From contig JAITHA010000022.1 in assembly GCA_031280235.1 (NCBI GenBank), forward strand, positions 1 through 64,000: a stretch of 64,000 nt of DNA, in the 5' to 3' direction. Below, in pieces: positions 14,363-37,637 of the stretch (positions are counted from its first letter, which is position 1; the number at the start of each line of letters is the position of its first letter). The notes under the pieces were generated by a model. That model searched no databases. It was not told the origin of the DNA and was given only the letters and a program-made list of their open reading frames with translations. The position numbers and the translations under genes were made by a program. The DNA comes from Puniceicoccales bacterium. Lineage in GTDB: Bacteria; Verrucomicrobiota; Verrucomicrobiia; Opitutales; UBA953.

Positions 14363-15759
14363 GCAACCTTGGCCCGGTCCGTACACGCTTCGCACCCAGC
14401 CCGACAGGCTTCTTTCACATCGGCGGTGCGCGCACAGCCCTCTTCAACTGGCTCTACTCACGCCACACAGGGGGTAAATTCATCCTTCGTATTGAGGACA
14501 CAGATAAGGCACGCAATAGCGAGGAATTCCTCCGCGTCATCTACGACAGCCTCAAATGGCTCGGCATAGACTGGGATGAAGGCCCAGGCATGGGGGGGGG
14601 CCACGGCCCATACCGCCAAAGCGAGCGCAACGACGTTTACCGCCTCTATCTCGAAAAACTCCGCACTACAGGCAGAACCTACGAGAAGGACGGTGCCATC
14701 TGGTTCCGCCTCAATGGCGAACGCCACACCGTCCACGAGAAATACAAGGAAGACGACGGCACCGAGCACGACCGTATCGTTGAGCGCGTCAAAGCCGCCC
14801 CGGTACTCATACACGACCTCATCCGTGGAGACGTCTCCCGCGCCGAAGACAGGGACTTTGTCCTCGTGCGCGCCAATGGCGAGCCAGGCTTCCACCTCGT
14901 CAACGTGGTTGACGACATCGCGATGCGCATCACGCACGTCATTCGAGGCGAAGATCACCTCTCCAACACCTCCAAGCACATTGAGCTCTACAACGCACTC
15001 GGCGAACCTCCTCCCGTGTTCGCCCACATCCCCCTCATTTTGAAAGCCGACGGCAAAGGTAAAATGTCCAAGCGAGATCGCGGCGCACTCATCGAAGAAT
15101 ATCAGGCACGCCACTTCTTGCCCGAGGCTGTACGCAATTTCCTCTGTCTCCTCGGTTGGACACCCGGCGACGGACGCGAAATCTTGCCCATCGCCGACGT
15201 CATCACCCAGTTCGAGCTGCACGACGTGCACCAAGCCAATGCGCGCTTCGACGAACGTAAAATGGCCTTCTTCAACCAGCAATACTTGCGCGCTATGCCA
15301 GCACCAGCGTTTGCCCAAAAAGCCCTCTCCGCCCTGCATCAGGCAGGACTCGTCGACGCAAACGCCAGCACAGACGATGCCCACATCCAAAGCATCCTCA
15401 TCTTGCTGCAGGAAAAACTCCCAAGCCTAGAAAACATCGCTGACATGAGTACCTATTTTTTTACCGAGGAATATCCCTACTCACCCAACGTTCGGGAAAC
15501 CCTCACCAAAAAAGGCGACCCCGTCGCACGTGTACGCCAGCTTCTCCCCGCATTCACCCAGCTGGCCAGCATGGACGACGCCACTGCGATAGACGCCGCT
15601 ATCACCACCACTGCCACCGCATTCGCTGCCAAACCAAGCGAATATTTTGCCCCCCTACGCTACGCCATCAGCGGCCTCGGCAGCGGCCCCCACCTTCACG
15701 ACATCCTTCGCATCCTCGGCAAAGAACGAACCCTCATCCGCATGGACCGCTTCCAATAG
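14359..15759 (+). CDS. gltX: Glutamyl-tRNA synthetase
   Basis: GltX charges tRNA-Glu. The 466-residue class I synthetase has the HIGH-type motif FAPSPTGFFHIGGART (HIGG at 20-23) and the KMSKR loop at residues 235-239. Length and layout are normal for a discriminating or non-discriminating GluRS; which of the two cannot be told by eye. A run of nine G residues (14592-14600) encodes part of the GMGGGHGPYRQSER segment near residue 78. The gene overlaps tig by 4 bp. Transcription probably ends at the hairpin at 15875-15917. Confidence 0.96.
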   Translation: MSNLGPVRTRFAPSPTGFFHIGGARTALFNWLYSRHTGGKFILRIEDTDKARNSEEFLRVIYDSLKWLGIDWDEGPGMGGGHGPYRQSERNDVYRLYLEKLRTTGRTYEKDGAIWFRLNGERHTVHEKYKEDDGTEHDRIVERVKAAPVLIHDLIRGDVSRAEDRDFVLVRANGEPGFHLVNVVDDIAMRITHVIRGEDHLSNTSKHIELYNALGEPPPVFAHIPLILKADGKGKMSKRDRGALIEEYQARHFLPEAVRNFLCLLGWTPGDGREILPIADVITQFELHDVHQANARFDERKMAFFNQQYLRAMPAPAFAQKALSALHQAGLVDANASTDDAHIQSILILLQEKLPSLENIADMSTYFFTEEYPYSPNVRETLTKKGDPVARVRQLLPAFTQLASMDDATAIDAAITTTATAFAAKPSEYFAPLRYAISGLGSGPHLHDILRILGKERTLIRMDRFQ

Positions 15760-15760
15760 G

Positions 15761-15825
15761 CATGTTGTGGTATAAACGCTCGTCTCAATAACTCAAAAAA
15801 CACACCGAATTCCCGGCTCAAAATG
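15761..15825 (+). repeat. Dispersed 65-bp repeat, copy A
   Basis: This stretch begins one base after the gltX stop and matches 37373-37437 at 57 of 65 positions by hand alignment, without gaps. A 28-bp core (15777-15804) is identical in both copies and includes the motif GTCTCAATA. Both copies lie downstream of a plus-strand gene in the same orientation. The repeat has no reading frame of note. Its nature (REP-like, MITE fragment or 3' UTR element) is open. Confidence 0.8.
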
Positions 15826-15874
15826 GTTGCCATTTCAACCCCTATTGTGCCCATCTTTCCCGATTCAAACACGC

Positions 15875-15997: not shown

Positions 15998-16420
15998 AAA
16001 AGAAAGTCGTATGGCATGGACGGGAAGGCGGGGAGTCAATGATTTTTTGGTTCCTCGCCATTTTGAGTGGGGAGGTTGGTGGCAGGAGAAGGTCAGTTTC
16101 GCGGCGTGGAAGGAGAGCTTCGAGATTGGATTGGCACTCATGCGAAAGCCACGGGTGGCTTGTTTCACAGCTTCAAACGCGCTGTTTAGTCCTTTTCATT
16201 AGGTATCCTGAGCACGGCACAGCCTGCTATATCCCACAGTTCGGGTTAAAAAAGCTTTTTTGCAGTCATAGAAAATTCATTCATAAATTTTCCCCGACCC
16301 AGAGCAACTTCCGCAGGCTATCCACTCAAAACTGCGAGGAACCGATTTCGATTTTTTGCAGCGCCTTCAGGTGTTTTTTGTCGCCCAAGCCTTCAGCTCA
16401 GCCACCCTGCCGCCCTCTCC
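15998..16420. other. Intergenic region upstream of tRNA-Pro and sufE
   Basis: No gene can be supported. The open frames here have no recognisable domain and cross the tRNA. A possible minus-strand tRNA promoter is TTGACT at 16039-16034 with TGCCAT at 16016-16011, 17 bp apart; the -10 match is weak. A short A/T palindrome AAAAAAGCTTTTTT lies near 16248-16261. Confidence 0.45.
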
Positions 16421-21671: not shown

Positions 21672-21838
21672 AAGAGGCCTGAGCGTTACTTTTCTTTTGC
21701 TGAAAAACCCCCTCCCGAGGCTTTGTGGGAAAGCACTTCCCACTTGCAAAACGCCGCTGCGTATTTGACCTTGCCGCCTTGCCTCAGGCGTCGGTACGCC
21801 TCGACTTTTCACACGCCACACACTCTCTTCTTTTCCCG

Positions 21839-24800
21839 ATGAAAAAACTTACCCTTCTGCCCATCAAGCCACGTGCAGCGGCGGCCACTTTCTGCGAGCC
21901 CGCCCGCCGCCCGCGTTTTGCCCGTGGCCTCCTCTTTGCCGCTGCCTCAGCCGTGATGCTGCCGGTGGCTCTTGAGGCAACGGTCAAGGATGATTTTCTC
22001 TCCACGCAGCAGCGCATCATCAGTGTTAACTGGCTGGCGGAAAACAATAGCGACGGGCAAATTTCAAACGACAGAACGGCAGGAGTTCTCCCCGTTCGGG
22101 GTGTCAATTGGAATCAGTATAGCACGGCCTTGACGGGAAGCGGCCTCAAGGACCAATCCGGGAGTGCCACTTCTGTCGGTATTACTTGGTCGGGGCGAAA
22201 TGGGCTGGGTCTAAATGGGCGTTATCGGAGTGATGGCTCTCAGAACACGGGTAATGGCCAGCTAACAAAGGGGTACATCGACGATGGTGGTTCCGGCTAC
22301 CCGGTGATTACTTTCTCCGACCTTCCTGGCTTTTTGAGTTCGGCGACGACCCTTGATGTTTACGTCATCGTTGCCGGGGATAGTGGGGGTGGAACGAAGA
22401 ATTTTGCTCCCGTGAAGATTAATGGTACTTACTACACCAGTACCGCAGCGGGTTCGACCGTGACGGGGGACTCAGCATGGAGTGCCCAAAAATATGCAGA
22501 TGGGAACTTGGCGGAAGGTGTGAGTGGGAGTTACCTCCATGCCACCCTGAACACATCCGCCATTGTTGGCGGGAGTCTTCAAATCCTCGCAGACAAAAAC
22601 CCAAGCTCGTCAAGGCGCAACATTGCGGGTGTGCAGTTGGCTTGCGAGGTTTTAGATCCGAGCACGCTTGCTGATTTTTACCACTGGATGGGTGGTGCCT
22701 CGGGGACTTGGGATGCCGTGGCGACCAACTGGAAGTTGGATGGTGCAGGTGCTGACCTCGTGTGGAATCCGGCGGGCACCGCCAATGGCCTTGTCGCTGT
22801 TTTCACGAGTGACGCGAATGTCTCTCTGACTGGCACTTTGGCGGCGAAGGGGCTTTGGGTGCAAGGAGGAGATGTCGTCTTGGGCGGGGCGGGCACCTTG
22901 GCCATGGAAGGGAGCAGGCTCATCGCCGTGGATGCTGGCTCGCTGACCTTGAGTGGCACAGTTACGGGCAATCTCACCGTCAAGATAGCCGCCAATGCGC
23001 AGGTCAACATCACCAATTCTTCCACCTTGGGTATTGCGAATTTCAGCAATCTCGGCATGCTCAACATTACACGGGATGCCGGCAACCCTTACGCGTTTGG
23101 AGGCATTAGTGGTGCAGGGGTGCTCTCCCTTGGCAGCGTGAGTACAGTGGTGAACGCGTCCCAGGCGCTTACGCTCGCTGGGCTCACGGGCACGGGGAAA
23201 CTCAGTAGCACGTCCAACAACCTGACTATTGGGCAGGGCAATGCAAATAGCTCTTTCAGTGGCGTCATTGACGGTAATTCCCTGGTGCTTTACAAGGTTG
23301 GCACAGGCAAGCTTGAGTTAGCTGGCACGGCCAACACCCATATCCAGACACGCATCAGCGCTGGCACCGTGAGCTTCAGCAAGGCGGATGCCCTTGGGAA
23401 GAACATCCATGCGCTCACGGCAGATTTCCAGATAGAAAACAACCCAGCCAATGCCCTGTACATGAGGGTTGGCAGCACTTTGGAGTTCATGGGGACGGAT
23501 AGGGCGGAATTCATCGGCAGGATCAATATTGAAAGTCCTGTTGCTGGCACAGTAACGTTCAATGTCGTTAACCCGGATGCAGCCCTGACTGTTCACAATA
23601 TTTTTATTGGATACAACGCAAACTGGGACAGAATGCTGACGAAGACGGGGCCCGGCACCTTGATTTTGGGTGCCTCGGTTTCGGCAGGAGAAGACCACAA
23701 TAACTGGGCGGCATTTGAGATTACAGAGGGGGTGTTAGAGTTTGCCAAAGCAAAGAATGCAGCGACGAACATTCTGCACGCCCGAGGAGGCACAGTACAT
23801 TTTACGGGTGCTTCCACGGGGCAGATAAACCCCTCCGCGACCAACAAGGTGGTTGTGTACGCTCCGGCTGCGACGCTCAGCTTGGATGGCTCCGACCAGT
23901 CTGCACCACCAACCACCGTCGAGGCAGGCACTTTCACCAACACCAGCCCGCGGACGGGGTTGCCCGCTTCTGCGCTTGGTTCCTACAGGACGCAGGAAGC
24001 AAATGGGCGTGTAGGTTTTGATTTCAGAAAAACCACAGCCGGGGTCATGACGATTGAGGGTGTAACGGTCGGCACAGGGGGTGCTGACGTCACCGGTGGC
24101 AGGATAGTTGCTTTTTCTTTTGAGGCTGGGGTGATCAATTTCAAGGACGATGGGCTGGCCCAAGGTCGCCTGTATTCCTCTGCCCCGCTCAAGATTCTTA
24201 GCGCAAATGCTTGGTTTGGTGGTACAGGCCAGCTTGATGCCTACATCGATTTAACGAATACCTACCCAGTCAACATCGGTGGCTCGCTAGATGCCAAGCC
24301 TGGCACGATCGCGTTCATGCGCGACGACACAAGCTATATCGGAACTATCAACATCGCCGGGGGCCATGCCTTCCAGTGGGGTATAGGGGGCGCGGTGGGT
24401 TCTACGCCAAGCGCCAACATCGTCATCGCAGACGCTGGCATTCTGGCCTTCAACCGGAGCAACAATCTCACTTTCGACCAACCTCTCAGTAAAGATGCTC
24501 CCGGCGCCAACGCGTGGATAGAGCAGCGCGGGGGGGGGGCTGTGACACTCGATGGGGACTACGGAGCATTCAGCGCGCGCGTGGTGATGGGCACCCTCAT
24601 CAATAGCCGCTCCATTGGGCATACGGTTGTTGACGAAGGTATTTTTGAAAACCGTGGTCAGGCAGGTGCCCTGACGGTGACTGGCGGCCAAGCCTTCAAT
24701 CATGCAGGCATCTCGGGCAATGTTTCCGTGACCGATGGTGTATTCACCAACCATGCAAACGTTTCGGGTGACGTTACCGTGGCTGGTGGCAAAGTTCTCA

Positions 24801-27800
24801 ACGAGTCGAGGATTTTTGGCACCACCACTGTGGATGGCGGCAGAGTGCTCAACCAGGGTGCAGCCGATAGGGTGTTCATCAATGCGGGTGGTGTCTTCCG
24901 TCTCGAAAACGGCAGCACTGGGACGATGGGTATCAACAGCGGCGGCGTCCTCGAATTAGCCTCAGGGTCGATGGGCAGCATTGGTTTCGACACGGATAGC
25001 GCTATCGCCTTTGACCTGAGCGCGGGCGTGGTGCCCTCCGCCGTCAACGTCTCCTTCCTCGGAGACGCCGTTGCGGATTTTTCGCTCATGCTGGACAGGT
25101 TGACGAGCGGCGCGCGTATCCCGCTGTTCGACTATGCTGGCTCGCTCAACAACCCATCCCGCCTCAGCATCAACAACGCCTCGTACTACCGCCCCACGCT
25201 TACGCTGGACTTCAGCGAACCGCACAAGATCTACCTCAACGTCGCGGCAGGCAGCGTCAGCGAAAACCTTGTGTGGAACGGGGCAGGCGCGGCGGACGCG
25301 TGGAACCTCACTGCACAAAACTGGCAGCTCGCAGGCACCACGACGCCCGACTCGTTTCACTACGGGGACCACGTGTTGTTCGATGATACGGCCTCTGCTA
25401 AGGCAGTGATCCTTGAAGCGGGCAAGTATCTCGCCCAGAATGTGACCGTGCGCAATAGCGTGGGTAACGACTATAGTCTGGAGGGCCCAGGCGAAATCGT
25501 TGGCCTGACCTCGCTCACCAAGGAAGGCTCTGGGAAATTGAGTGTGAGCAATGCCAACTCCTATCGTGGAGGTACTTTCATCTTGAGCGGTGAGCTGTGG
25601 ATGGAGAATCTCGCCGCACTTGGCACGGGAGACATCTACCTCGGCGGCGGCGGCGCGCTCGTCGTCACACCGTTGGGTTTTCGCCAGAACGTCATCGTGC
25701 TCGACGGGGAAACGGGCGGCCTGCGCCTGCAAGTTGACGAGCGCTACCCGGTGCCATTTTACGGCAAGGGCACCCTTAATCTGCTCGGCGATGGAAACGC
25801 GGCGAGCACGCGCTATTTCACCGCACTCAACAATGCCTTTGAAGGCACCATCGTCGTCGGACGCGGCAACTTCGTATTCGCGGGCAACGCCGCAAACTGG
25901 GGCAAGGCCGACATCTCTGCCAATGACACCACCGCAGGGGGCGGCACCTACCTGCGCTTTACGGGCATCGGGACGACGAAAGTCCATGGCTTGGTGAACA
26001 TCGCCAATGCTAACATCGTCCTCAGCGGGGCGACAGTCGTGGACATCGTGGGTGAGCCAGGTGTGGGTGGCAGGCTGTCTCTCCAGAGCGGCTCCAGCGA
26101 TGATGTGCGGGTCGAGGCTCCGGTGGTCGTCGGCGGCAACACTGCGGGCCTGACCTCCTCTTCCGGAAAGCTCATTATTGATACCAACGGGCGAAATGTC
26201 GTTTTCAACACCGCACGCTTGGTGGATTCTGCCAATGGCGCGTTGACTGTGATCAAAGAGGGAGCAGGCAGAGTGTCAGGTGTTTCCATGGACTACACGG
26301 GCGGTCTTATCGTGAACGGAGGGGAATATGTGCTCAGTATCGGCGGTTGGCGGAACGTGGCGGGCAACGACGTCACCATCAACAACGGTGCTGTTTTCAC
26401 AATGGAAGGTGCGTCTGATATTGGGGTCGGCACTGATGGTGTACCCTCGGGTACGGTACTTCGCACCCGATGGAACATCAACGAAGGCGGTTTACTTTAT
26501 GTTGGTGGAACGACTGCCCGCGCGGGCATAAGCTACGGGCACGTGACGCTCAGGGGTGGGCAGCTTGTGCTGGACGTGAGAAACTCCTCTCAGGGGACGA
26601 ATGATTGGAATAACACGTTTACTCAGGATGTGGTGGTCGATGGCGACGTGACGTCCCTCGTTACCTACTGGTCGCAAGGCCCCAACACGGCCTGGGATGT
26701 TTTTAACCTTTGCCAGAATAACGGTGGCACTAGTGGTCGAAATGGTACGACGACCTTTGATGTGAAGCGTGACGCTCTTGATGGCTCTCCGGGTCTCATC
26801 GTGGAAACGCGGCTTAATCGAAACACGTCGGGGGCCGGCAATCTGCGGAAGATCGGCCCGGGCACAATGGTACTCACCAACTCCTTGAACAGCTACGGCA
26901 ACACAAGCATCGATGAGGGGACGTTGCAGGTGGGCTATGCCGGGCAAACAACGGTGAAGAATAACCAAGGGCTGGTGGAGACGCACTCCCACAACAGCTC
27001 CAGCGGGAGCCTCGGTGCATCTGGCACAACTGTCACCATCGCGAGCGGGGCCAACCTGATCATAGACCTCTCGGCGGGCAGTTTCGGGCAGACGTTTTCC
27101 GGCGCGGGAAATTTGGAGAAGCGGGCGTCCTCGTACTCCGGCGGGGATGTGACGCTCAGCAATGCGTCGGCCCTCACGGGGAACATCGCAGTGCGCAGAG
27201 GTGGGCTGTTGCTCACCGCAGCAAGCCCGATGACTCTGAGCGGCAACATTGAGGTAGAGAACGGCGCGTGGCTGAAAATCACTGGCAACACGAACCTCTC
27301 CAAGGCGAACAGCACCTCCTACGCCGGGCACACGCTGGGCGCGCTCTTTTCGGGATCAGGTGGCCATGACGTCGACTCCAAGCTTATCGTCTCCAACGGG
27401 CACACCCTGCGCGTGGGCGGCGTGAGCACCGTCGAGGAACTGTCCGTTGCCGGGTTGGAGCTGAACGGCGCAAAGCTGCAGTTCTACTACGGCGAAGGAG
27501 ATGGCGCGGGGACGGACGTGATAAATGTCGGTGGAGCGCTCACTTTGACCGACGTCAATGTCATCGCCTTGGGCGACGGCGTGAACCCGACCGCCTGGGT
27601 GAATGGCGAGGTTACGCTCATCAAGACGACGGGCACCGTGACGCTCGCCGACATCGAAAATCATCTGCAGTTGGACATCACGGGGATCACGAACCCCGAA
27701 ATGAGCGTCCTGACTTTGAAGCCGGATCTCTCGGGCAAGAATGTCATGCTCCAGGTGGCCGTGGCCACGGACGTGTTGACATGGAGTGACACGGCGGATG

Positions 27801-30800
27801 GGCGGTGGGCTGTGAGCGACGGCTATCGCTGGCTATCACAAAACACCGGCGTGAATGTTGAGTATGTGCAGAACGACGGGACAATCGCCGTGCGTTTCGA
27901 CGACATGAACAGTATTTCGCGCAACGTGGTGATGACTCAATCACTCGCGCCGTTCTCCGTCACTTTCGCTGGCGTGGACACCTACACGCTCACCAATGGC
28001 ACTGGCGGCAAGCTGGAGGGCCTTGCCGCGTTAAACAAGACGGGCAATGGCCTCCTCATCCTCAGGAGCGAGGACGGCTCGCTCAACGAATTTTCGCGCA
28101 ACGTCACGGTCAGCGGTGGCGTGCTTGAGCTCACAGGCGACTATAAGCTCATGGGTGACGAGGGTGTTTTCAACAGCTCCAATGTGTTGCAAAATGTCGC
28201 TGCCGCCGCCAGCCTCATGGGCGCGAGTTCAGCGAAATATCCCTTTGCCATAAGCAATGGGGCGACGCTGCGCTTCAACGGCAACGTCGGCAATGCCACC
28301 AGCAGCAACCGCACCTTCCGTGTGGGCACGGGCGGGGGCATACTCGAAATCGCCTCGACGGGAGCGGACACGCGCGTCTGGTTTCAGGGCACCGCGAACC
28401 GTGAGCTCGCGCACAGCGGTGTGGGTGCCCGCTCATTGACGCTCGCTGGCGCAGGCGGGCAGGATGGCTTTACTGTGGACGCCACTGGGCGTGCCACAGC
28501 CATTTCCGGTACGACGGCGGGCGGCATCATGGCCCTTGCGATGGGAGATGGCGGCAGCACCGCGCCTCTCACCATCGAGAAAACGGGTACAGGCGTGTGG
28601 CACCTCACCGGGAACAATACTTTCACCGGGGGCGTCGTTTTGCACGAAGGCCTGCTGGCAGTGTCTGCGGGGAGCGCGCTCGGTGCTACAACTGCGCCGC
28701 TCGTTTTCAACGGCGGCAGCCTCGTCAACGCTGTGCACAGCGCAGATGGCTCGACGTTGCTCGACGGCGTGGCGGACAACTTTACCATTGCTCACCCGGT
28801 TTCTGCGGAGGGTGGCGGCGGATTTCTCGTGCTCGACGGAGGTGTTGGGAAAAACAGTCTCACTTTGAGCGGCACGATCAGTGGCACGGGTACCTTCGGT
28901 AAGAGCGGTGCGGGGATACTCCACCTCACTGCCAACAGCAATGCGTTCACCGGGGGTGTGCACATCCACGACGGGCAAGTCGTAGCGCGCCACCAATATG
29001 CACTGGGTCGGAGCCTCGTTACCGTGGAGCCAAGCAGCAGCGGAGGCGCGGGCCTAGTGTTGGGAGCCGCCAATGTGGTCGTGGGCGTGCTCGCTGGCAG
29101 CGGCATCGTGGAGACCGGCATCACCACCCAGTCCCAGCTCACCTTTGATGCGCCTGTCAACGTGACAGCGGATTTTCAAGGTACCTTGCGCGATGGCACG
29201 GGCCCGCTCCGTCTCGTCAAATTAGGCTTTGGCACGCAGCGTCTCTCCGGGGCCAACACTTACAGCGGCGGTACCCAAGTAGGCGTGCTTACGGGCACGG
29301 TGACGCAAGATGGCGGCACGCTCCGTCTGGGCCATCTCGATGCGCTGGGGGACAGCGCGGCCAGCACCAGCATCATCAGCGGCGTGCTCGACATCGCCGG
29401 GCTGGATTTCTCGGCCACCCAGAGAGAGGTCTCTCTCGACGGTACCAGCGCGAGCATCGCGGACAGCTGCGGTAGCTACACGCAGGGCTCGGGCACCTCT
29501 GTTTTCCCGCACTTGCAGCTCAATACAGACGGCATTGCCCGGGGCGATGGCACGACAGCCTTCTCTGCCGTGAACGGACAACACCAGCTCAGCCTCATGG
29601 CCCTCGCAGGCGCCGTGAACGCGCCAGTCTTTACCGTCACAGAAACCAGCACGCTCGACGTCGGCAGTTTCTTCGTGAGGGCAGGGGCGACCTTGTGCAT
29701 TGAGGGCACGGAGCGCATCAACGCGTCCGTGGGCCTGCGCTTCGACGGTGGCACGCTCCTACTCGGCGCCGGGGTGATGCAGACTGTTTCCGACGTCAGC
29801 AGCACGGGCTCGCTGGGTGTCGTGCGTGGCTACGGCACATTGCTTCTCAATGGCAGCGCGCCTGGCTTGCCCGTGAAGGAATTTGGTGTCGAACTCCAAG
29901 AGGTGGCGAACCTCACGCTCAACAGCGGCTCCCTGCAGCTTACGCTGCCTGCCTCGACGAGCGGCGTTATTTCCGCTGCTAATTATAGCACCCTGCTGAT
30001 TCCTGTGGCGGTGGATCCGCTACAGGATGTTTTTGGCCAGGCCCGCCTCGCGCTGGACAACGGGACAGTGCAGTTCACCGCTGGTGGCGATGTGCGGCAT
30101 GATTTGATTTTCCGGGGCGCTGAAGGCCATTTACGGGCCACCGGCACTGCGGATCTTTCCATTGAGGGCTCGCTTTTTTACGGCGCGTCCGTCGCCAGCT
30201 ATAACTTCTATCTCGAAGGCGAGAGTCAAGCGGTCAACACATTGTCCGTCTCGCTCTTTGACCCCGTCTGGTCTGTCGGTTCGCTGTCGCTCACCAAATC
30301 CGGGCAAGGTGTCTGGGTGCTTGGCGGCGCGGGTGTGACGAATATCTACACGGGCGTGACGACTGTCTTGCAGGGCACGTTGCGCCTCGGCTCGGATGAT
30401 GCCGTGCCAGCCACCTCCACCGTCTCCCTCGGCAGTGCGGGCACGGCGGGTGTGCTCGATCTCGCTGGGCACAATCTTCGTCTGACCCACCTTGGCGCGA
30501 GCGCGCGTGCGGGCAACGCCCTTGTCAACTCAGACGGTGTTTCTCCCGTTCCCGTTTTCACTTGGGTCGTGAATGAGGCCCAGTCCTTCACGGGCGACCT
30601 TGGGCAGGGCACGGGCAGGCAGTTCGATTTTGTGAAAACGGGTAGCGCTGTCCTATCCCTGCACGGCAGTTCCAATTACCGGGGCGACACCTACGTGCGC
30701 GAAGGACTCTTGGAGCTTACCACCGAGGCCTCGCGCCCCAAGGGCCAGCTTCTCTCCGTCTCGCCGGGCGCGCAAGTTGACGTACGTCAGGTTGTGAGAG

Positions 30801-33800
30801 GCCTCCATCTCGCGCCGGGCCAGACTCTTGCTGCGGGCTCAGGGGACACGACAAGCACTTGGGATTTGCTCGGGGACTGCGTTCTCGAAGGCGGAGGTAT
30901 CGTGGTCGGGGACGCCTCCAGCCTCGCTGCCTTGGAGAGCTCCCACGTCTTGCGCATCAATGGCGTGCTCGCCATCACCCAGGACTCCCACATTGGCTTT
31001 GCGCTTGATACCGCGCCCGGTGGTTCGAGTTCTGTCATCAAGGCAAACATTCTCCAGGTGGACGCCGCTGTCAGGCTGGATTTGACCCTTGCCGGACCTT
31101 TCCTTTTGCCGGGTACCTACACGCTCATTGAGTATTCGGGCTTCTCTGGGGACTTCACGAATTTCCACTACGAGGCGAGCGCTGTAGATCCGCGCTACAC
31201 TTTTTCGATATTGGACAACTCTGCTGTGTCGCGCCTCCAGCTGGTTGTGGACTCCGTCACGGCGGGCGTGGGTGTGCGTGTTTGGGACGGTTCTGCTGGG
31301 AATACTTGGAATACGGCGGACGCGTATTTCCTGCAAGGCGGCGTACCCGTTGCCTACGAAAACGGTGCCGCCGTCATCTTCAACGACTCTGCCTCAGCCT
31401 TTAATATTTCCGTGCAGGACGCCGTCATCGGCGGGGTCACATTCAACAGTAGCCAAGACTACACGGTCGGTGGCGCGCCCATCTCGGGCGAGGGCTACAT
31501 TGAAAAACGCGGCACGGGCAGCCTCACCCTCACGAGTGAGAACAGCTATCGCGGCGAATTGGATCCCAATACGAGTGAGCGCAAGGCTGCCACCGTCCTT
31601 GCCCAAGGCACGCTTATCCTCGGCCACGACAAGGCGTTGGGCCCGGACGCGCTCCTCATCACCGGCGGCATACTCACCACCGATGGCGTGCCCTTGCGTG
31701 CTTTGGCAAACGAGGTCGTCTTCGCCTCCAGTGCTGTGGGCACTCTCGCCACGGATGTTTCGAGCACTCTTTCGCTCAGTGGCATCCTGCGCACGCAGGG
31801 TTCGGGTGTGGCCGTTCTCCAGAAAACGGGCGACGGTACTCTGCAATTGGGTGGCGATGCATCGGGTTTCCACGGCAACCTTAACGTCTCTGCGGGGCGC
31901 ATCCTGTTGCGCAATTCCATCGACCTCTCGGGTGCGCTGCTCCAGCTCGACGCGGGTGCAACGCTTGAGCTCTCGGGCTCTGTGGGTGCTCTCACCTCGC
32001 GCCTCGGCGCCCTTGTGGGTGAGCAGAGCTCCATCGTCCGTTCCTCTCTCGCGGGCACGGCCACGCTTGAAGTGGGCGCATTGGGTCAGGACTCGACTTT
32101 CTCCGGCACTTTCGAAAGTTCAGCGAACACCCTCTCCATTGTCAAGACGGGTAATGGCGTCCTCATCCTTTCCGGGGATAACTCGGGCCTTGCCGGGACG
32201 GTTACTGTCTCCCAAGGCACACTTCAGGTCGGCGATGGCCGTGACGGGTCGATGCTGGCGGGCAGCATCGACATCGCGTCAGGTGCGCGCTTTGTCTTGA
32301 ACATCGCCGATAATGTGAGCCTCGCCCAGCTCGTCTCCAGCCAGGGCGTTTTTGAAAAACGCACGGAGAACGAGTTGGAAATTCTCAGCCCGAACGATTT
32401 GCTCAATGGTACTTTTCTCATCAGCGAGGGCTTGGTGGTGGTGGATGCGGCCGGGACGTTAGGCCATGCGGCCATTGAGAACAACGCGCGCCTTGATATG
32501 CGCCGTGACGACAGTTACGCGTTCGACAACAACATTTCTGGCGCGGGTGTGCTTTCGAAAAATGGGCGCGGTATCGCGACCTATTTTGGCTCACACACGG
32601 GCACGGGGCAAACGATTCTCGCTGCGGGTTCCTTGCAATTCGGCGATACGGCACGTGTCTTTAACCAGCAGCACCTCGCGTCCGTCGCGACAGAGGCGGG
32701 CACGACACTTCGCTTCGCTCCCGCTACTGGTGGGATGCTCAAGGTTGGGAGTGTCACAGGGCAGGGTTATCTTGAAAAAGTTGGCGGTGGCGTGGCCCAG
32801 CTTATTGGCCTCGTGCAACTGCATAATGCGGCCAATCACGTGGACATTGAAGTGCGCGAGGGCACGCTGAGCTTCGGCGATGGCGACGGGCGCACGGGGC
32901 GGCCCGCTTTGACTGTGGAGAGCACAATCAACGTTCTTGGCGCAGGGACGCTCATGGTGGCTCGCAGCGGTATCACGACCTTGAGGCAAACGCTGTCCAG
33001 CGTGGGCCTCATTGAAGCGCGCGGCGATAACAACGGCAATGCGCATCTCGTCCTCGCAAGCCCGGATAACCAGATCTCTGGCACAATGAATGTCCGCCGT
33101 AGCGCCATTGTACAGGTGGGTGACGTGGCTGCTCCGGGAAGCCTCAACGGCGCTGCTGGCACTTTGCCGATCGCCGTGACTCTCGACCAATATGCAGTGC
33201 TGCGCTTCACCAACCCGGTCTCCGGCGAGACGGGCTCTTCTCTCCAGCTGTCCAGTACAGAGTTGGGCAACGGCACTCTCGAGTACAACGGTGGCGGCAC
33301 TTTGTTGTTCAACAGCCAGGTTACTGGCGCAGGCAATGAGTTTACGGGAACGCTGCGCTCGGCGTTTGGCACTCTTGTCGTGGATCTCGACACCTTGCCA
33401 CGCACCCTCACGCTTGATGCTGTAGGTTCCGGAAACCTCTTTCTCGGCGCAAGCCAGGACACGGTGTTGAATGTGAACCTCGGAGACGGAAACGGCGTGG
33501 TGACGCTCGGCGTGAAGGACGCTGCGGCACCGCTCAAGTATGAGCTCGCCGGGGAGCGCTCTTTCAACGGCACGCTTGCTGTCGGCGCTCACGCCACCCT
33601 GCATCTGGTGGACGGCTTTGCTGCGGCGAACGACTCGCAGGCCTGGGCTTCGCCGGGCCTCACTGCCAAAACTTTTCTTGTCAACAGTGGCGCTTCGTTG
33701 ACGGGTAGCGGCACGATCAAAGGCAACCTGCTCAACGCTCTTGGTGCAGTCTTCCACCCGGGAGATGATGGCCTCGGGCGTGTTAATGTCTCAGGCAATT

Positions 33801-35263
33801 TTTACAATGATGGCGCTCTCGTTGTGGCCTTGCTTGGCGCGGACTCTTACTCGACGGTGCATTATACTGGCAGCGCCGTGTTGGGTAGCACGAGCTCACT
33901 CAACATCAAAGTGACGCGGCAGACCTTTGACTTACTTTCCGCCGGGCAGGACCTCCATTTCCTGCGGGACGAGGATCTCAACGATGGCTTGCAAACCGTG
34001 TTGGGCAATTTCTCCCAGGAGAACATCTCCCTCCTTATCACCGATGAGTACGGCAGCGTGCTGGAGACGCGCACCGGCTCCTGCCTCTCCTATAACGCGG
34101 GAGACGGGGGCCTCCACCTGATGTTTGCCAACAGCCTCAGCAGCATCCCGGGAGTGCATTTGCACAAGGGCCTCAAAGACTACGAGCGCTACGTCAACGA
34201 CCTCCTGCAAGGGCGTTTCCCTGTGCCCGCAGGAGACTCGAACCCAGTCACCATCGTCAGCGGCTTGCTCGGGGCGGATAATGTGAACCGTGCTTTTAAT
34301 GCGGCATCCCCGGCAGGCTTGGCTAGCATGGCAGCAATGCCGATTGCCATGGCGCACGACACGTCGGACACGTTGAGCGAACACTTGGAGGCAATGCGCT
34401 TCTCACGCCCGATGACCGCAAACCACGAAACGCCCCAGCCCTACATCGCGGGCACGGGCAGCTTTGTCCGCAACGGCAGCGGCAGCGAAAACCCGGCCTT
34501 CAACCACCAGACCTACGGAGCCATCGTCGGCCTCGACCAGTTTCTTGGTTCCCAGTGGCTTGCGGGCCTCGCTGTGGGTTATTCGCACGGCAACGCGGAC
34601 ATGGCCTACCAGGCCGGGCGTGTTGCTCAGGACAGTATGCGTGCCGCCATCTACTCCACCTACATGCTCGCCGATCGTTGGTATGTCGAGGCCTCCCTCT
34701 CCGGTGGTTATAGCCACTACAGCGTGAAACAGCAGGCGCTGTCGTTTGGGACAGCCAAGGCCAGCCCGGACGGCTTCGACTTCGGCGGCTCCATCTCCAC
34801 CGGAGCCATCTTCTCGCTGAACAATCGTGTCCACTTCACGCCACACGTGGGGTTGGAGTACGTCTATGCCTCTGTGGAATCGTTCTCGGAAAAAGGAAAT
34901 GCCGCCGACTTGTGCGTCGAGGGCTTCCATCAGGACTCACTCCAGGCAAGAGTCGGCTTCGGCGTAAGTTGGCTCGTGCCCACGATGGCAGATTTCACGC
35001 TGCGCCTCGCCTTCGACTTCTCGCTCTCGCACGAATTGCTCGACCCGGATGTGCAGCTCCAAGCGCGCTTCCGCTCCGACACCACAGGCAACAGCTTCCG
35101 TAGCGAATTGCCCTCAGTGGCAGAGACCATGCTGAAACTTGGGCCAACTATTGATGTGGGCCTCACACAAAACATTTCCCTCTCGCTGAGCTACCGCCTC
35201 GGGTATGACCTCGAAAAACAACAAGCGCACCATGTGAACGCTGGCTTCCGCGTTCGTTTCTAA
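21839..35263 (+). CDS. Giant autotransporter adhesin with beta-strand repeats (4474 residues)
   Basis: This 13.4-kb gene encodes a surface or secreted type V protein. The start at 21839 gives an extended signal region: about 27 basic residues, a hydrophobic core LLFAAASAVMLPVAL, and cleavage near residue 47. The passenger (about 50-4180) is a Gly/Thr/Ser/Asn-rich beta-helix. It has at least a dozen copies of the autotransporter-associated beta-strand repeat, patterned as GxGxLxLxGxNxYxGxTxVxxGxLxLG; examples are NSYRGGTFILSGELW and NTYSGGTQVG. Residues about 4190-4474 form the autotransporter barrel, starting PYIAGTGSFVRNG and ending in aromatic NAGFRVRF. An in-frame G10 tract lies at residues 898-901. 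Adhesion is inferred; the ligand is unknown. Compare the second copy at 46641-52922. Confidence 0.93.
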   Translation: MKKLTLLPIKPRAAAATFCEPARRPRFARGLLFAAASAVMLPVALEATVKDDFLSTQQRIISVNWLAENNSDGQISNDRTAGVLPVRGVNWNQYSTALTGSGLKDQSGSATSVGITWSGRNGLGLNGRYRSDGSQNTGNGQLTKGYIDDGGSGYPVITFSDLPGFLSSATTLDVYVIVAGDSGGGTKNFAPVKINGTYYTSTAAGSTVTGDSAWSAQKYADGNLAEGVSGSYLHATLNTSAIVGGSLQILADKNPSSSRRNIAGVQLACEVLDPSTLADFYHWMGGASGTWDAVATNWKLDGAGADLVWNPAGTANGLVAVFTSDANVSLTGTLAAKGLWVQGGDVVLGGAGTLAMEGSRLIAVDAGSLTLSGTVTGNLTVKIAANAQVNITNSSTLGIANFSNLGMLNITRDAGNPYAFGGISGAGVLSLGSVSTVVNASQALTLAGLTGTGKLSSTSNNLTIGQGNANSSFSGVIDGNSLVLYKVGTGKLELAGTANTHIQTRISAGTVSFSKADALGKNIHALTADFQIENNPANALYMRVGSTLEFMGTDRAEFIGRINIESPVAGTVTFNVVNPDAALTVHNIFIGYNANWDRMLTKTGPGTLILGASVSAGEDHNNWAAFEITEGVLEFAKAKNAATNILHARGGTVHFTGASTGQINPSATNKVVVYAPAATLSLDGSDQSAPPTTVEAGTFTNTSPRTGLPASALGSYRTQEANGRVGFDFRKTTAGVMTIEGVTVGTGGADVTGGRIVAFSFEAGVINFKDDGLAQGRLYSSAPLKILSANAWFGGTGQLDAYIDLTNTYPVNIGGSLDAKPGTIAFMRDDTSYIGTINIAGGHAFQWGIGGAVGSTPSANIVIADAGILAFNRSNNLTFDQPLSKDAPGANAWIEQRGGGAVTLDGDYGAFSARVVMGTLINSRSIGHTVVDEGIFENRGQAGALTVTGGQAFNHAGISGNVSVTDGVFTNHANVSGDVTVAGGKVLNESRIFGTTTVDGGRVLNQGAADRVFINAGGVFRLENGSTGTMGINSGGVLELASGSMGSIGFDTDSAIAFDLSAGVVPSAVNVSFLGDAVADFSLMLDRLTSGARIPLFDYAGSLNNPSRLSINNASYYRPTLTLDFSEPHKIYLNVAAGSVSENLVWNGAGAADAWNLTAQNWQLAGTTTPDSFHYGDHVLFDDTASAKAVILEAGKYLAQNVTVRNSVGNDYSLEGPGEIVGLTSLTKEGSGKLSVSNANSYRGGTFILSGELWMENLAALGTGDIYLGGGGALVVTPLGFRQNVIVLDGETGGLRLQVDERYPVPFYGKGTLNLLGDGNAASTRYFTALNNAFEGTIVVGRGNFVFAGNAANWGKADISANDTTAGGGTYLRFTGIGTTKVHGLVNIANANIVLSGATVVDIVGEPGVGGRLSLQSGSSDDVRVEAPVVVGGNTAGLTSSSGKLIIDTNGRNVVFNTARLVDSANGALTVIKEGAGRVSGVSMDYTGGLIVNGGEYVLSIGGWRNVAGNDVTINNGAVFTMEGASDIGVGTDGVPSGTVLRTRWNINEGGLLYVGGTTARAGISYGHVTLRGGQLVLDVRNSSQGTNDWNNTFTQDVVVDGDVTSLVTYWSQGPNTAWDVFNLCQNNGGTSGRNGTTTFDVKRDALDGSPGLIVETRLNRNTSGAGNLRKIGPGTMVLTNSLNSYGNTSIDEGTLQVGYAGQTTVKNNQGLVETHSHNSSSGSLGASGTTVTIASGANLIIDLSAGSFGQTFSGAGNLEKRASSYSGGDVTLSNASALTGNIAVRRGGLLLTAASPMTLSGNIEVENGAWLKITGNTNLSKANSTSYAGHTLGALFSGSGGHDVDSKLIVSNGHTLRVGGVSTVEELSVAGLELNGAKLQFYYGEGDGAGTDVINVGGALTLTDVNVIALGDGVNPTAWVNGEVTLIKTTGTVTLADIENHLQLDITGITNPEMSVLTLKPDLSGKNVMLQVAVATDVLTWSDTADGRWAVSDGYRWLSQNTGVNVEYVQNDGTIAVRFDDMNSISRNVVMTQSLAPFSVTFAGVDTYTLTNGTGGKLEGLAALNKTGNGLLILRSEDGSLNEFSRNVTVSGGVLELTGDYKLMGDEGVFNSSNVLQNVAAAASLMGASSAKYPFAISNGATLRFNGNVGNATSSNRTFRVGTGGGILEIASTGADTRVWFQGTANRELAHSGVGARSLTLAGAGGQDGFTVDATGRATAISGTTAGGIMALAMGDGGSTAPLTIEKTGTGVWHLTGNNTFTGGVVLHEGLLAVSAGSALGATTAPLVFNGGSLVNAVHSADGSTLLDGVADNFTIAHPVSAEGGGGFLVLDGGVGKNSLTLSGTISGTGTFGKSGAGILHLTANSNAFTGGVHIHDGQVVARHQYALGRSLVTVEPSSSGGAGLVLGAANVVVGVLAGSGIVETGITTQSQLTFDAPVNVTADFQGTLRDGTGPLRLVKLGFGTQRLSGANTYSGGTQVGVLTGTVTQDGGTLRLGHLDALGDSAASTSIISGVLDIAGLDFSATQREVSLDGTSASIADSCGSYTQGSGTSVFPHLQLNTDGIARGDGTTAFSAVNGQHQLSLMALAGAVNAPVFTVTETSTLDVGSFFVRAGATLCIEGTERINASVGLRFDGGTLLLGAGVMQTVSDVSSTGSLGVVRGYGTLLLNGSAPGLPVKEFGVELQEVANLTLNSGSLQLTLPASTSGVISAANYSTLLIPVAVDPLQDVFGQARLALDNGTVQFTAGGDVRHDLIFRGAEGHLRATGTADLSIEGSLFYGASVASYNFYLEGESQAVNTLSVSLFDPVWSVGSLSLTKSGQGVWVLGGAGVTNIYTGVTTVLQGTLRLGSDDAVPATSTVSLGSAGTAGVLDLAGHNLRLTHLGASARAGNALVNSDGVSPVPVFTWVVNEAQSFTGDLGQGTGRQFDFVKTGSAVLSLHGSSNYRGDTYVREGLLELTTEASRPKGQLLSVSPGAQVDVRQVVRGLHLAPGQTLAAGSGDTTSTWDLLGDCVLEGGGIVVGDASSLAALESSHVLRINGVLAITQDSHIGFALDTAPGGSSSVIKANILQVDAAVRLDLTLAGPFLLPGTYTLIEYSGFSGDFTNFHYEASAVDPRYTFSILDNSAVSRLQLVVDSVTAGVGVRVWDGSAGNTWNTADAYFLQGGVPVAYENGAAVIFNDSASAFNISVQDAVIGGVTFNSSQDYTVGGAPISGEGYIEKRGTGSLTLTSENSYRGELDPNTSERKAATVLAQGTLILGHDKALGPDALLITGGILTTDGVPLRALANEVVFASSAVGTLATDVSSTLSLSGILRTQGSGVAVLQKTGDGTLQLGGDASGFHGNLNVSAGRILLRNSIDLSGALLQLDAGATLELSGSVGALTSRLGALVGEQSSIVRSSLAGTATLEVGALGQDSTFSGTFESSANTLSIVKTGNGVLILSGDNSGLAGTVTVSQGTLQVGDGRDGSMLAGSIDIASGARFVLNIADNVSLAQLVSSQGVFEKRTENELEILSPNDLLNGTFLISEGLVVVDAAGTLGHAAIENNARLDMRRDDSYAFDNNISGAGVLSKNGRGIATYFGSHTGTGQTILAAGSLQFGDTARVFNQQHLASVATEAGTTLRFAPATGGMLKVGSVTGQGYLEKVGGGVAQLIGLVQLHNAANHVDIEVREGTLSFGDGDGRTGRPALTVESTINVLGAGTLMVARSGITTLRQTLSSVGLIEARGDNNGNAHLVLASPDNQISGTMNVRRSAIVQVGDVAAPGSLNGAAGTLPIAVTLDQYAVLRFTNPVSGETGSSLQLSSTELGNGTLEYNGGGTLLFNSQVTGAGNEFTGTLRSAFGTLVVDLDTLPRTLTLDAVGSGNLFLGASQDTVLNVNLGDGNGVVTLGVKDAAAPLKYELAGERSFNGTLAVGAHATLHLVDGFAAANDSQAWASPGLTAKTFLVNSGASLTGSGTIKGNLLNALGAVFHPGDDGLGRVNVSGNFYNDGALVVALLGADSYSTVHYTGSAVLGSTSSLNIKVTRQTFDLLSAGQDLHFLRDEDLNDGLQTVLGNFSQENISLLITDEYGSVLETRTGSCLSYNAGDGGLHLMFANSLSSIPGVHLHKGLKDYERYVNDLLQGRFPVPAGDSNPVTIVSGLLGADNVNRAFNAASPAGLASMAAMPIAMAHDTSDTLSEHLEAMRFSRPMTANHETPQPYIAGTGSFVRNGSGSENPAFNHQTYGAIVGLDQFLGSQWLAGLAVGYSHGNADMAYQAGRVAQDSMRAAIYSTYMLADRWYVEASLSGGYSHYSVKQQALSFGTAKASPDGFDFGGSISTGAIFSLNNRVHFTPHVGLEYVYASVESFSEKGNAADLCVEGFHQDSLQARVGFGVSWLVPTMADFTLRLAFDFSLSHELLDPDVQLQARFRSDTTGNSFRSELPSVAETMLKLGPTIDVGLTQNISLSLSYRLGYDLEKQQAHHVNAGFRVRF
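24530..24539 (+). repeat. G10 homopolymer inside the giant autotransporter
   Basis: Ten G residues in a row encode Gly-Gly-Gly and the first base of Ala (residues 898-901). Slippage by one base would stop translation before the barrel, so this is a candidate contingency locus. Nothing in the sequence proves that switching occurs. Confidence 0.9.
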
Positions 35264-37235: not shown

Positions 37236-37263
37236 AAGGAGCCCCCTACGGGCTCCTTTTTTT
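37236..37263 (+). terminator. Intrinsic terminator of the Gfo/Idh gene
   Basis: A 9-bp perfect stem (AAGGAGCCC with GGGCTCCTT) around a CCTAC loop is followed immediately by a T run (TTTTTTT). It lies 54 bp after the stop codon at 37182 and is a textbook Rho-independent terminator. Confidence 0.92.
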
Positions 37264-37372
37264 GACTATGCGCGGAGAGACTAGACTTGTTGTGATATTA
37301 GAGCAGTCTCTTATTCCACAACTGCCCTATTGATGCCGCTGAAGACGCCCAAGAGGGTGAAGGTTGGATAGT
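37264..37372. other. Spacer after the terminator
   Basis: No gene or motif is recognised between the terminator and the dispersed repeat. Confidence 0.4.
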
Positions 37373-37437
37373 CATGTTGAGATATAAGCGCTCGTCTCAA
37401 TAACTCAAAAAACACATCAAATTTCTGTCTCAAAATG
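37373..37437 (+). repeat. Dispersed 65-bp repeat, copy B
   Basis: This matches copy A behind gltX (15761-15825) at 57 of 65 positions without gaps. It lies 190 bp after the Gfo/Idh stop, downstream of a plus-strand gene as for copy A. Its GTCTCAATA motif (37394-37402) recurs inverted at 37495-37503 and again forward at 37537-37545, inside the inverted repeat that follows. Confidence 0.8.
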
Positions 37438-37480
37438 ATAGTTTTTGACAACTTTCGGGCCTCTTATTGGCACTTGCGCA

Positions 37481-37559
37481 CAGTGAAAAATCTTTATTGA
37501 GACTGGAATAATATCCCAACACGTCTATTATTTTCAGTCTCAATAGGAATTTTTCACCG
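37481..37559. repeat. 25-bp imperfect inverted repeat with 29-bp loop
   Basis: The left arm (37481-37505) and right arm (37535-37559) pair at 21 of 25 positions. Each arm contains GTGAAAAAT and ATTGAGACTG or their complements. The structure sits between the plus-strand Gfo/Idh gene and the minus-strand permease. It could be a bidirectional transcription barrier or the end of a small mobile element. There is no clean T run. Confidence 0.75.
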
Positions 37560-37637
37560 TCTGTAAGAGAGAAGAGGACGATCGGATAAATCTGATGGAT
37601 CGGCCTGATCTGGCGGTGTTGGATCTTTCCCTTGGGT

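Follow-up and report, generated by a model that had tools for sequence, protein, structure and literature searches.

A 158-bp MITE family in an uncultured Puniceicoccales genome, probably mobilised by an IS5-family transposase

The noncoding repeat at 15761-15825 and 37373-37437 of the window (the whole 64,000-nucleotide stretch of DNA analysed) is the left part of a longer dispersed sequence with a 158-bp consensus. We consider it highly probable that this is a non-autonomous element of the MITE type, 158 bp long and probably moved in trans by an IS5-family transposase. The MITE reading, which an earlier note on this DNA had offered beside a REP-like one, is borne out by inverted repeats at both ends, target-site duplications of 3 bp, empty sites and an insertion sequence (IS) that is a candidate partner.

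Extent and distribution of the repeat family

The two window sequences have the same orientation and share 57 of 65 positions, the longest uninterrupted match being 28 bases, as the earlier note described. A 28-mer pair within 64 kb has a chance expectation of ~3e-8. The 65-bp unit given in that note is a real repeat but was drawn too short. Alignment of the copies with their flanks extends the shared unit by ~90 bp, with starts at 15758 and 37370 and a complete length of 158 bp (157 in copy 2). The consensus opens with AGACATGTTGTGATATAAGCGCTCGTCTCAATA and closes with an imperfect reverse complement of its start, the general form being AGAC(A/G)TGTTGTGATAT...ATATCACAACA(C/G)GTCT. The terminal inverted repeats are imperfect, with 15 of 16 bases matching in the outer part; an unconserved spacer then leads to an inner inverted box, GTCTCAATA, that matches at 9/9 positions. 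Two copies carry a GGGAAAT variant at the right end. The element is non-coding, with no room for a transposase gene in 158 bp, and its G+C content is 37% versus 59% for the window.

The same genome (G000) is available as a 1.76-Mb draft in 100 contigs, 83% complete. The BLASTN search that the earlier note had proposed, run with 105 bp around copy 1 as the query, gave 18 matches there. In 56 relatives, eight of them of the same genus, blastn gave no match. With a profile search, 22 contigs gave 27 clear places, and there were two weak ones besides (about 27-30 places), counts that rest on search matches in a draft assembly; 18 of the places are complete or close to complete, and the remainder are fragments. 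The small dispersed family that had been suggested from two copies therefore exists. Since the copies are 6-17% diverged from the consensus and several are broken, most insertions appear to be old. An origin by chance or by local duplication inside the window was conceivable while only two copies were visible, and it would have been left standing had no further copies turned up. The 18 blastn matches and the 27-29 profile places exclude that outcome, and with unrelated flanks on 22 contigs the probability of such an origin is negligible.

In the eight congeneric genomes, profile searches gave nothing convincing, a lone match in the congener G003 (17.6 bits, E 0.007) being taken as chance. The core had no match among 84,980 species genomes, viral contigs and plasmids, in exact-pattern scans that miss diverged copies and in collections from which near records may be absent. 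Among the genomes searched, the MITE is restricted to its own genome.

Target sites and the insertions in the window

Flanking target-site duplications, which the earlier note had proposed to look for, are 3 bp long. When the element is read as AGAC...GTCT, the three flanking bases are alike on both sides in 9/17 complete copies, the trinucleotides being AAT, ATT and once CTT; perfect duplications are absent from the other eight. Random re-pairing of the flanks of these 17 copies, with the boundary chosen after inspection of the flanks, gave a mean of 4.06 and reached nine or more in 0.15% of trials (P=0.0015). No excess over re-pairing was seen among the 17 copies for lengths of 1, 2, 4 or 5. 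The insertion target is an ANT trinucleotide, often cANTg; the target duplication of ISL2-type elements is 2-3 bp, ANT. A TA duplication of the mariner/IS630 type was the first reading and was dropped, because a 3-bp ANT duplication fits better, including the copy C27a, whose CTT/CTT flanks are compatible with a length of 3 and not with TA.

An empty site is available for one insertion. The MITE copy on C94 lies inside another mobile repeat, preceded by GAACAAT and followed by AATTTCTTGG, and the unoccupied paralogues, three in the same genome and one in the congener G002, read GAACAACTTCTTGG. At this one site, the empty and occupied versions differ by a single substitution.

Copy 1 consists of the left ~68 bp of the MITE (AGGCATGTTGTGGTATAA...CTCAAAATG, 15758-15825, plus strand; profile match 15754-15852, model positions 5-101), with the right ~90 bp missing. 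Its left target trinucleotide, AAT, occupies 15755-15757 on the plus strand, a boundary taken from the family alignment and the target-duplication statistics. The sequence of the gltX end reads ...CGC TTC CAA TAG, and the stop codon TAG (15757-15759, plus strand) takes its T from the target and its AG from the element. GltX of seven congeners runs two to about a dozen residues past the Phe, with varied tails, and the window protein has only Gln after it. From these congener tails we conclude that the insertion supplied the gltX stop codon and probably trimmed a dispensable GltX tail.

Copy 2 (37370-37526, plus strand) is complete by alignment and profile, with both terminal inverted repeats; the outer parts lie at 37370-37385 (plus strand) and 37511-37526 (minus strand). 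The inner box lies at 37394-37402 (plus strand) and its partner, TATTGAGAC, further right. Directly adjoining is an inverted fragment of a second MITE (37527-37578, minus-strand profile match, model positions 98-153), probably an older copy into which copy 2 jumped. A 46-bp mini-element at 37283-37328 (AGACTTGTTGTGATATTAGAG + CAGTCTCTTATTCCACAACTGCCCT), 41 bp upstream of copy 2, joins a MITE-type end to an IS right end and stands between ACT and ATT (37280-37331 with these flanks, plus strand). Both copies had been placed just downstream of a plus-strand gene. The description is accurate for copy 1, whose sequence overlaps the gltX stop, but only loose for copy 2, which lies ~190 bp downstream of the Gfo/Idh stop, on the far side of the terminator-like hairpin of that gene at 37236-37258. 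It is noted that copy 2 and the inverted fragment form a long hairpin (37460-37577) with weak, sub-threshold matches to plant miRNA families, taken as chance.

Other features of the window should be mentioned. A second dispersed repeat at 16037-16343, also found on C94, C95, C60, C66 and C65 and on G002:C80, starts GGTTCCTCGCT.TTTTGAGTGG...GTTGAATAGGGTTGGGGAGGATTTATGAATAG and leads into an ORF, MTTEKLFEQLLGLADEW. It resembles the left end of a further IS, and from its ends our guess would be ISL3; a Pfam scan of the 49-aa start of its gene found nothing. Its short start motif has at least 38 matches in G003. An open frame of 4512 aa spans 21725-35263; it contains nine passenger-associated-transport repeats (PF12951) and is apparently a giant autotransporter.

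The candidate partner and alternative movers

A search with the end pattern returned six single-ended matches with the variant end (T)AGACGTGTTGGGAAAT or one near it, followed by a common sequence that leads, in the better preserved cases, to a transposase start. Elements with the end AGACGTGTTGGGAAAT encode or abut HTH_Tnp_4/DDE_Tnp_4. PF13359 (DDE_Tnp_4) scores over its cut-off on the C-terminal halves, PF13613 (HTH_Tnp_4) reaches 26.7 bits, just under its cut-off of 27, and NF033581 (IS5) matches weakly, below its cut-off. The predicted partner transposase is of the IS5-type DDE class.

The full IS, 994 bp, was found in G002 (Puniceicoccales MAG Pc512_bin99) at 1428-2421 of L096 (G002:C124). 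Its reading frame is split in two near a run of nine A (A9), which could reflect a programmed frameshift or mutation and decay. No intact copy was found in the MITE-bearing assembly, which yielded fragments or deletion derivatives only: a 338-bp derivative with ATT on both sides (C30), a ~520-bp derivative (C22), and pieces on C84, C89 and C96. These last pieces stop at contig ends, so that a full copy, though unseen, is plausible in this genome. Identity to the G002 copy is 85-97% for most IS pieces in G000, against only 69% for GltX of these two genomes; this suggests horizontal transfer of the IS. On the minus strand of L015 (C21), at ~1625-1690, a nearly perfect palindrome of ~50 bp consists of two IS right ends (AGAGCAGCTGTGAAATAAG...CTTATTTCACAACTGCTCT), a minimal derivative.

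The MITE left end agrees with the IS left end at 15/19 bases and with the IS right end at 14/19, and the right end of the C94 MITE agrees with the IS left end at 16/19. The GGGAAAT variant at the right end of two MITE copies is a further sign of shared ends. At C94:27353, a hybrid of ~200 bp has a left half from the MITE and a right end from the IS, and a composite of ~708 bp on C65 is made up of one MITE end, part of the other repeat and the C-terminal portion of the IS. No exact duplication flanks any of the mixed elements. The MITE and the IS have unrelated interiors, and the MITE is therefore not derived from the IS by a simple internal deletion. In G002, the IS is present and the MITE is absent.

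Based on the shared ends, the ANT flanks and the MITE/IS hybrid, the MITE is likely mobilised in trans by the IS5-family element. We propose that the DDE transposase of this IS would bind the MITE ends and move the MITE by cut-and-paste, and that insertion at ANT would duplicate the trinucleotide. Local effects would be incidental, copy 1 being the case in which insertion gives gltX its stop codon. A bolder version, which we regard as unlikely, is that MITE and IS ends are interchangeable in one system, that the mixed-end units (the C94:27353 hybrid, the C65 composite and the 46-bp mini-element) moved as units, and that new MITEs arise by end-swapping and not by internal deletion.

A different transposase, for example a resident IS630-type enzyme, could potentially move the MITE, its likeness to IS5-type ends then being convergence. 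IS630-type (DDE_3) genes are present, one MITE copy abuts such a transposase fragment on C1, and TA flanks a GAC...GTC core in most copies, as in IS630/mariner elements; the unrelated MITE interior would also be compatible with another mover. However, around the DDE_3 genes no MITE-like end was found except the MITE itself, the duplication is a 3-bp ANT and not TA, with CTT/CTT at C27a and a re-pairing result that favours length 3, and it is with the IS5-type element that the MITE has in common its ends, its ANT flanks and at least one hybrid. IS630 was rejected as the partner, having no matching ends and fitting the duplications and ends less well, and movement by another enzyme of this kind seems quite improbable.

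Alternatively, the repeat might act at the RNA level, as a REP/BIME-like or other element retained at the 3' ends of genes to stabilise or terminate their transcripts. In favour of this, a stem could be folded from the inverted ends, each of the two window copies follows a plus-strand gene, and a same-strand ORF is upstream in 9 of the 12 copies scored, by a rough, approximate count. Against this, the covariation term is only -0.16 kcal/mol, a double change is kept in just 3/34 pairs, no Rfam family matches at threshold, copy 2 contains no terminator-like site, and some copies lie inside or against mobile elements. The covariation analysis, Rfam scan and terminator search thus gave no evidence for an RNA function, and the RNA element was rejected as very improbable. 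The REP-like alternative of the earlier note fares no better, as the 158-bp unit is not a 20-40-bp GTAG or CGTC hairpin and the sole match in the genome to a Y1 (RAYT/IS200-type) transposase, Y1_Tnp, has no MITE end beside it.

Relation to known systems

Pairs of a MITE and a resident partner IS are well known (RUP/IS630-Spn1, PMC2229807; review PMC10969869), and a limited search of the literature on MITEs and insertion sequences gave no evident report of a MITE family in Verrucomicrobia/Puniceicoccales. The present work adds such a family and its candidate mover from uncultured Puniceicoccales, together with a clear case of an essential tRNA-synthetase gene whose stop codon is supplied by an insertion at its 3' end. 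The main use will be in annotation and in recognising mobile DNA in these genomes.

REP/RAYT systems, reported from Opitutus terrae of the same phylum (PMC3733652), are likewise dispersed extragenic repeats in Verrucomicrobiota. They consist of 20-40-bp hairpins with GTAG or CGTC tags, the GTAG ones linked to RAYT transposases, whereas the MITE described here has neither such a hairpin unit nor an associated RAYT. The candidate partner resembles the ISL2-like group of the IS5 family, e.g. ISCaa2/3/6 of Amoebophilus (PMC3196728), in its size of ~0.9-1.0 kb, its ~20-bp imperfect ends and the sometimes two ORFs; members of that group encode a transposase and the MITE does not. The Correia elements (CREE/NEMIS) of Neisseria are also MITEs of ~155 bp with inverted ends and a mostly intergenic location (PMC2229807, PMC10969869), but they differ in their ends, their TA termini and their more than 100 copies, and promoter, IHF and RNase III effects are known for them. 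RUP of Streptococcus pneumoniae is a non-autonomous repeat proposed to be moved in trans by IS630-Spn1 (PMC2229807). Both RUP and the present MITE are repeats on the 100-bp scale, with inverted ends that match a resident IS and insertions into other IS elements. The partner of RUP is an IS630 with TA targets, whereas the candidate partner here is of the IS5 type with 3-bp ANT duplications, and the sequences are unrelated. The MITE is thus a new family of a well-known kind of element, ordinary but cleanly resolved.
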